From NCBI RefSeq assembly GCF_007995095.1, contig NZ_VOPY01000002.1, positions 496,001-560,000 on the forward strand: a DNA stretch of 64,000 nucleotides, given 5' to 3'. A program made the translations under genes and the position numbers. Origin of the DNA: Flavisphingopyxis soli (GTDB taxonomy: Bacteria > Pseudomonadota > Alphaproteobacteria > Sphingomonadales > Sphingomonadaceae). This document shows positions 54,883 to 57,578 of the stretch, in pieces; the stretch's first letter is position 1, and each line of letters opens with the position of its first letter. The notes under the pieces were generated by a model. The model made no database searches, was not told the origin of the DNA, and worked only from the letters and a program-made list of their open reading frames with translations.

Positions 54883-56478
54883 ATGATCGGCGGAATGCAG
54901 GACCGACCTTTGCGCGTGACCGACCTGATCGATCACGCCGCGCGCGAACATGGCGCGCGAGAGATCGTCACACGCTGGGCCGATGCCAGCGTGACCCGAT
55001 CGAGCTGGGCCGAACTCGCCGTGGATGCACGAAGGTTCGCCAGCGCGCTGGTCGGTCTCGGCATGAAGCCGGGCGACCGGATCGCGACGCTGGCGATGAA
55101 CCACGCCCATCATCTCGCCACCTGGTATGGCGCGGCGGGGATGGGCGGGGTGCTTCACACGGTCAATCCGCGTCTGTTCCACGAACAGCTCGTCTACATC
55201 ATCAACCATGCCGGTGGCCGCGTGCTGCTCTATGACGCGATGTTCGCGGGGCTCGTCGAACAGCTTCGGCCCGAGTTGACGACGATCGAGCATTATGTCG
55301 TCTTCGACGGCGCGGGCGAGGGAACGTTTCGCGCGTTGATCGACGGCGTGGACGGCGATTTTACCTGGCTCGGCGGAGACGAACGCGACCCGTGCGGTTT
55401 GTGCTATACCAGCGGCACCACCGGCCATCCCAAGGGCGTGCTCTACGAGCACCGGTCGAATGTCCTCCACGCGCTCGCCAGCCTCCAGCCCGACGTGTTC
55501 GACATGACGACGCGGTCGGTGATGTTGCCCGTCGTGCCGATGTTCCATGCCAATGGCTGGGGCATTCCCTTCGCCGCCGCGATGGTCGGCGCGAAGCTCG
55601 TTTTTTCCTGCACCAACGACGCCGGCGCGCTGTGGACATTGTTTCGCGAAGAGGGCGTCACGCACAGCGCAGGCGTGCCGACCGTCTGGCTGGCGATGTT
55701 CGCCGACATGGACGCCAACGGCGGCGATTACGGCAAGCTCAGGCGCGCCGTCATCGGCGGGTCGGCGGCACCGCGCGCGATGATCGAGCGACTGATGCGC
55801 GCCGGGATCGACGTCGCGCATGCCTGGGGCATGACCGAAACGTCGCCGATCGGCACGGTTGGATCGCGACCCGCGAACTGGGACGAACTCAGCTTTGACG
55901 AGCAGGTCGATATCGTCGTCAAACAGGGCAGCGTCCCGTTCGGCGTCGAACTGCGCACGCTCAACGACGATGGCACGGTGCTGCCGCGCGACGGGACAAG
56001 CAGCGGCCGTCTCGAGGTCCGTGGGCCCTGGATCATCGATACCTATTTCGGTGATGCCGGCGGCCCGACGATCGATCAGGACGGCTGGTTCGACACCGGC
56101 GACGTCGCGATCCTCCATCCCGACGGGGTCATGCAGATCACCGATCGCGCCAAGGACGTGATCAAGTCGGGCGGCGAGTGGATCAGCTCGATCGAACTCG
56201 AAAATGCCGCGGTCGGTTGCCCCGGCGTTGCCGAGGCGGCGGCGGTCGGCGTCCATCATCCCAAATGGGACGAACGCCCGCTGCTCCTCGTCATCCGCAA
56301 GCCCGACAGCAGCGTCTCGGCCGACGACATCCTCGCCTATCTCTCGGACAAGGTCGCCAAATGGTGGCTGCCCGACGAGATCAAGTTCGTCACCGAACTG
56401 CCGCACACCGCGACCGGCAAGCTGCTCAAACGCAAGCTGCGCGACGCATATGCCGATTATCGCCTGCCGGGGGTCTGA
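54883..56478 (+). CDS. Medium/long-chain acyl-CoA synthetase (AMP-forming)
   Basis: 531 residues of the ANL superfamily. AMP-binding motif [19 protein letters not shown]5 region [16 protein letters not shown]7 [16 protein letters not shown]8 [18 protein letters not shown] and the C-terminal catalytic Lys in [11 protein letters not shown]. The layout ([21 protein letters not shown]) matches fatty acyl-CoA ligases of the AlkK/FadD3 type that feed beta-oxidation. ATG preceded by GGGAGAG. Its stop is 2 bp from the ancestral stop of the convergent radical SAM gene. Confidence 0.93.
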
Positions 56479-56480
56479 GC

Positions 56481-56612
56481 CTAAAACAGCTCGCCCTGCG
56501 GCCCCTGTGGCCTGCGAAACAGCTCGGTCGCGAGCCGGGTGCGCGGCCCGTCGAGCCCATAGGTCCGCGCGGCGCGCTTGAACCGCGTGCGCAGCAGGTC
56601 GGCCCAGGGTCA
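56481..56612 (-). pseudogene. Detached C-terminus of the radical SAM gene beyond the TGA
   Basis: In the same frame as the radical SAM gene, after TGA (56610-56612), 42 sense codons encode PWADLLRTRFKRAARTYGLD and on to PQGPQGELF, ending at TAG (56481-56483). These match the usual family tail (GPWA/YxELxRxRF). With TGA read as Gly the protein would be 365 residues, the normal size. No start codon or Shine-Dalgarno makes it a gene by itself. Confidence 0.75.
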
Positions 56613-57578
56613 GCGTCCGCGCATCCGCGTGCCGAAGCCGGGATCGTTATCGCGTCCGCCGCGCAAATCGTTGATGATGTGCATGACCTTCTCGGCGCGG
56701 TCGGGATAATGCGCATCGAGCCATGCGCGGAACAGCGGCGCCACCTCGTGCGGCAGGCGCACCGGGATGTACGATGCCGCACGCGCGCCCATTTCAGCGG
56801 CGCGTTCCATGATGTGTTCGATCTCGTGATCGGTGATCGCGGGAATGACCGGCGCGACATTGACGCCGACCGGGATGCCGCGTTCGGCAAGGCGGCGGAT
56901 CGCATCGAGCCGCCGCGCCGGCGTGCACGCGCGCGGTTCGAGCGTGCGCGCAACGACCGGGTCGAGCGAGGTCACCGAGATCGCCACGCCGACGAGATTC
57001 TGCGCCGCCATCTCGGCGAGCAGGTCGATGTCGTCGCAGACGCGCGCCGACTTGGTCGTGATGATGACCGGGTGGCGCGTTTCGGCAAGGACTTCGAGCA
57101 CCTCGCGCGTGATCCGCCAGTCGCGTTCGATCGGCTGGTACGGATCGGTATTGGTCCCCATCGCCATCGGCGCGCAGCGATAGTCGGGTTTCGCCAATTC
57201 TCCGCGCAGCAGCTTGGCCGCGTCGGGCTTGGCGAACAGCCGGCTTTCGAAATCGAGCCCCGGCGACAGGTCGTGATAGGCGTGCGTCGGCCGCGCGAAA
57301 CAATAGACGCAGCCGTGTTCGCAGCCGCGATAGGCGTTGATCGAACGGTCGAAGCCGAGATCGGGCGAGCTGTTGCGCGAGATGATCGTTCGCGCCCGCT
57401 CGACCGTCACCGTCGTTCGCACGGGCGCGGCGTGCCCGTCGATTGCCGCGCGATCGTCGAGCCATTCGCCGTCGGCCTGGCGCTCGGCAAGGTTGAACCG
57501 CAACGGCGTCAGGTTCTGCGGCGCGCCGCGTCCCTTCGTCGCGAAGATCGGACTGTCTGGATCGGGCCGAATTGCCAT
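56610..57578 (-). CDS. PA0069-type radical SAM protein, truncated by in-frame TGA
   Basis: 322 residues to the first TGA. Radical SAM cluster motif C-x3-C-x2-C at Cys86, 90, 93 (GCEHGCVYCFARPTH), SAM-binding region and the DPYQPIERDWRITREVLEVL and SLDPVVARTLEPRACTPARRLDAIRRLAERGIPVGVNVAPVIP blocks of the PA0069/Rv2578c family. Function of the family is unknown. The family normally continues after MRGRG with a conserved helix; here the codon is TGA, one base from GGA, and the expected C-terminus is intact in the same frame downstream (see 56481-56612). Either a recent nonsense mutation, a sequencing error or, less likely, recoding. Catalytic domain is complete. Confidence 0.85.
   Translation of the reverse strand: MAIRPDPDSPIFATKGRGAPQNLTPLRFNLAERQADGEWLDDRAAIDGHAAPVRTTVTVERARTIISRNSSPDLGFDRSINAYRGCEHGCVYCFARPTHAYHDLSPGLDFESRLFAKPDAAKLLRGELAKPDYRCAPMAMGTNTDPYQPIERDWRITREVLEVLAETRHPVIITTKSARVCDDIDLLAEMAAQNLVGVAISVTSLDPVVARTLEPRACTPARRLDAIRRLAERGIPVGVNVAPVIPAITDHEIEHIMERAAEMGARAASYIPVRLPHEVAPLFRAWLDAHYPDRAEKVMHIINDLRGGRDNDPGFGTRMRGR

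Follow-up and report, generated by a model that had tools for sequence, protein, structure and literature searches.

Why should a conserved radical SAM gene carry an in-frame TGA 43 codons ahead of its usual end, with the coding capacity for the rest of the protein left standing behind it? In the window (the whole 64-kb stretch of DNA that was analyzed), translation of the minus strand from 57578 to 56481 yields 322 residues, the TGA (56612-56610), 42 sense codons, and a TAG (56483-56481), so that the locus resolves into the following parts.

56613..57578, minus strand: translated part of the PA0069-family radical SAM protein (322 codons, starting with ATG; 441 bits with NF033668, covering positions 1-303 of the 348 in the profile)
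56610..56612, minus strand: codon 323, an in-frame TGA (of 110 relatives, 109 have Gly here and one has Ser)
56484..56609, minus strand: family tail of 42 codons, untranslated, with the C-terminal helix and an extended segment
56481..56483, minus strand: original stop, TAG (the same codon ends the tail in the sister genome, the one congeneric genome compared)

With a sense codon at position 323, the full frame specifies a protein of 365 residues. The initial annotation, made from the sequence alone, had recognized a PA0069-type radical SAM frame halted by the TGA, with a tail running on in the same frame for 42 codons to a TAG 2 bp from the next gene, and both points are borne out by the translation, by a family match above cut-off, and by the end of the neighbor, a plus-strand acyl-CoA synthetase-like ORF, at 56478. 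What follows directly on the TAG of the tail in the sister genome (L002:1300-1370) does not resemble this acyl-CoA synthetase gene, and the neighborhood of the radical SAM gene seems to differ there.

The translated frame scores 441.1 bits against the NCBIfam profile NF033668 (rSAM_PA0069; cut-off, 360), and the span of the match indicates that the missing part is the C-terminus alone: the full-length tail is absent from the translated frame and encoded in the DNA behind the TGA. The upstream cysteines, described at the outset as intact, are indeed so in the cluster motif of the radical SAM CxxxCxxC type, CEHGCVYC (residues 86-93), in which Cys 86, 90, and 93 are invariant across 41 aligned sequences. 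A PDB profile search with the protein returned a weak match to SkfB and nothing else, and the literature searched held no match for PA0069 together with radical SAM. The gene is single-copy; a second intact copy elsewhere in the genome was considered and rejected, a DNA search having recovered one weak 54-bp match.

The relatives were gathered by a family search and from named genomes, mostly of Sphingomonadales and other Alphaproteobacteria with some Beta- and Gammaproteobacteria, and the read-through frame was aligned with the 110 that cover codon 323. None has a stop at this position (GGC in 57, GGG in 30, GGT in 11, GGA in 11, and AGC in 1), and the sister has GGC, followed by a tail unbroken to its own TAG. 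The derivation of the TGA from a GGA glycine codon, as first suggested, stands as regards the glycine and the one-base change, and GGA is compatible with it but not fixable as the ancestral codon, GGC prevailing in the relatives and being present in the sister. Complete relatives are 355 to 419 residues long (n = 107), and the full family-search matches listed each have open frames of 357 residues or more, against 328 for the interrupted gene. It had also been proposed that a TGA shared by sister strains would argue for a fixed shorter protein; the comparison, run on the relatives, gave a sense codon in all 110, which argues against it, and a conserved, fixed shortening was rejected on this ground.

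The sequence behind the TGA, first taken for the genuine family C-terminus, aligns without gaps with the sister tail, 37 of the 42 residues being identical. In this comparison, which covers the C-terminal ~240 residues alone because the sister gene is divided by contig ends, amino acid identity is 88.1% in the tail and 87.8% in the body, dN is 0.088 and 0.078, and dS is 0.37 and 0.58, respectively; 51% of the body windows of tail size have a pN at least as high as that of the tail. Five residues are not shared with the sister, and at two of these positions, 330 and 353, the interrupted gene has the commonest residue of the family. Every tail position conserved at ≥90% in 40 relatives is kept (A326, R332, A336, G341, L349, F354, P357, Q361, and L364), and A326, R332, F354, and Q361 are invariant in the 41 aligned sequences. 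Judged by these comparisons, the tail is without sign of relaxed selection. Hence, the stop either arose very recently, is not real, or is read through; if real, its youth would follow from the retention of all the highly conserved tail residues. A base-calling error or functional readthrough would, however, predict an undecayed tail just as well, and to that extent such a tail counts against reading the stop as a nonsense mutation. Reinitiation within the tail was rejected, as its own frame has no ATG, GTG, or TTG, the lone ATG behind the stop lying in another frame.

Programmed or functional readthrough of the UGA, by means of selenocysteine, a suppressor tRNA, or near-cognate insertion of Trp, would give the full-length protein. 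The preserved tail would fit this reading, as would the base after the stop, a C; the UGAC context is often described as leaky. The genome, however, has no selA, and its matches to selB and selD all lie under cut-off, at a level that also arises in 14 of 14 control genomes. No tRNA-Sec was found in it either, the best RF01852 match being the tRNA-Ser(UGA) locus. A selenocysteine hairpin behind the TGA, which the initial annotation had suggested looking for, did not materialize: a 56-nt segment spanning the stop and the sequence behind it is less stably folded than its shuffled versions (z, +1.32), and no Rfam element reaches its gathering score in the RNA downstream. Neither UGA nor Cys occupies codon 323 in any of the 110 homologues. 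Selenocysteine was rejected on these combined grounds.

A tRNA census of the genome gave 43 matches, of which 42 could be typed, and none of the latter has a UCA anticodon, in a census that is itself incomplete since the typed set is without some expected tRNAs, such as tRNA-Ile(GAU). The tRNA-Trp (CCA) is ordinary, with A9, G24, and a 5-bp anticodon stem, and thus differs from the variants with A9C, G24A, or a 4-bp anticodon stem that have been linked to UGA readthrough (PMC13092985). No suppressor tRNA or altered tRNA-Trp was seen among the typed tRNAs. A change of genetic code with UGA as a sense codon was likewise rejected, as TGA ends more genes in the window than any other stop (25 of the 40 sampled), prfB, encoding RF2, is present, and the tRNA-Trp is unaltered. 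A programmed mechanism is not indicated, and basal low-level readthrough is always possible; that readthrough is functional here strikes us as very improbable. We give equally little credence to its particular form in which a near-cognate tRNA-Trp reads the UGAC often enough to supply the full-length enzyme and keep the tail under selection. Two side observations come from the same census. The 43rd match (G000:C1:1003797-1003887; L171:101-191) is an odd tRNA-like sequence that scores 51 bits with RF00005, has an anticodon-arm loop enlarged to >20 nt, and receives no ARAGORN call; it may be the relic of a tRNA or a tRNA-like sequence carried by an element. Besides tRNA-Ile(GAU), tRNA-Ala(UGC) is also missing, and perhaps an rRNA operon region is absent from the assembly or masked in it.

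As to what the stop removes, the read-through protein was modeled with AlphaFold2 from a 41-sequence alignment, with Trp placed at 323, at a mean pLDDT of 79 and a pTM of 0.81. The last helix of the model (residues 323-339) starts at the stop, with block 331-340 at a pLDDT of ~96, and the tail is confidently modeled to about residue 360 (block means of 96, 88, and 87). On this model, the stop takes away an ordered, conserved element that starts at the stop itself, and the CEHGCVYC core remains. The 322-residue protein, lacking the last helix and the tail, is probably impaired. One could instead suppose a fixed functional shorter protein, in which the radical SAM core has no need of the tail in this lineage, and the intact motif and conserved core would allow for it. 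Yet the tail is kept in all 107 complete relatives, four of its residues are invariant, the model has a confident helix at this very place, and the tail DNA shows no drift; we consider such a protein unlikely, markedly so.

The stop in this gene is most simply a recent one-base mutation or a sequencing error. Under the latter, codon 323 would be a sense codon in the organism, and its product would be the complete protein of 365 residues; the uniqueness of the stop among the relatives and the lack of any decay in the tail are both consistent with it. The interruption is also isolated: a coding scan of the window gave no clear case of another stop-interrupted gene among the checked segments, and three sense-strand cases with interior stops (dnaG then rpoD; eno; lolD) look, by family search, like separate, normally ending genes. 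Against an error stands the quality of the assembly, which has 4 contigs, a completeness of 99.99, and a contamination of 0.01; in assemblies of such quality, errors that consist of one substituted base are uncommon. The chief rival of a mutation is an erroneous base in the assembly, and we hold this to be possible but doubtful. That the base is real we infer with one genome of the species behind it.

We propose, as the probable explanation, a lone and recent nonsense substitution in this single-copy PA0069-family gene. A single-base substitution would have created the TGA at codon 323, ribosomes would terminate at the UGA via RF2, and the product would be a protein of 322 residues that keeps the iron-sulfur and SAM core and loses its final helix along with the C-terminal segment present in every aligned intact relative. 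The observation is real, and its explanation is ordinary. It offers a clean example of a conserved gene that looks broken through one base, and for the PA0069 family, it adds little beyond marking a conserved C-terminal helix. Readthrough would be of interest if true, and nothing found favors it.

Several parallels are suggested by known systems. Like recent bacterial pseudogenes arising by nonsense mutation, the gene has a lone stop in an otherwise intact frame and in one lineage only, although here the stop is read from one assembly of one genome. The Rv2578c family of radical SAM proteins (NCBIfam NF038135) has a related core, matched by residues 61-297, but the score of 219 bits is far under the cut-off of that family, 430. 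The closest likeness is to the PA0069 family (NF033668) itself, whose N-terminal and core regions are complete in the truncated frame, whereas the TGA keeps profile positions 304-348 out of the translated product.
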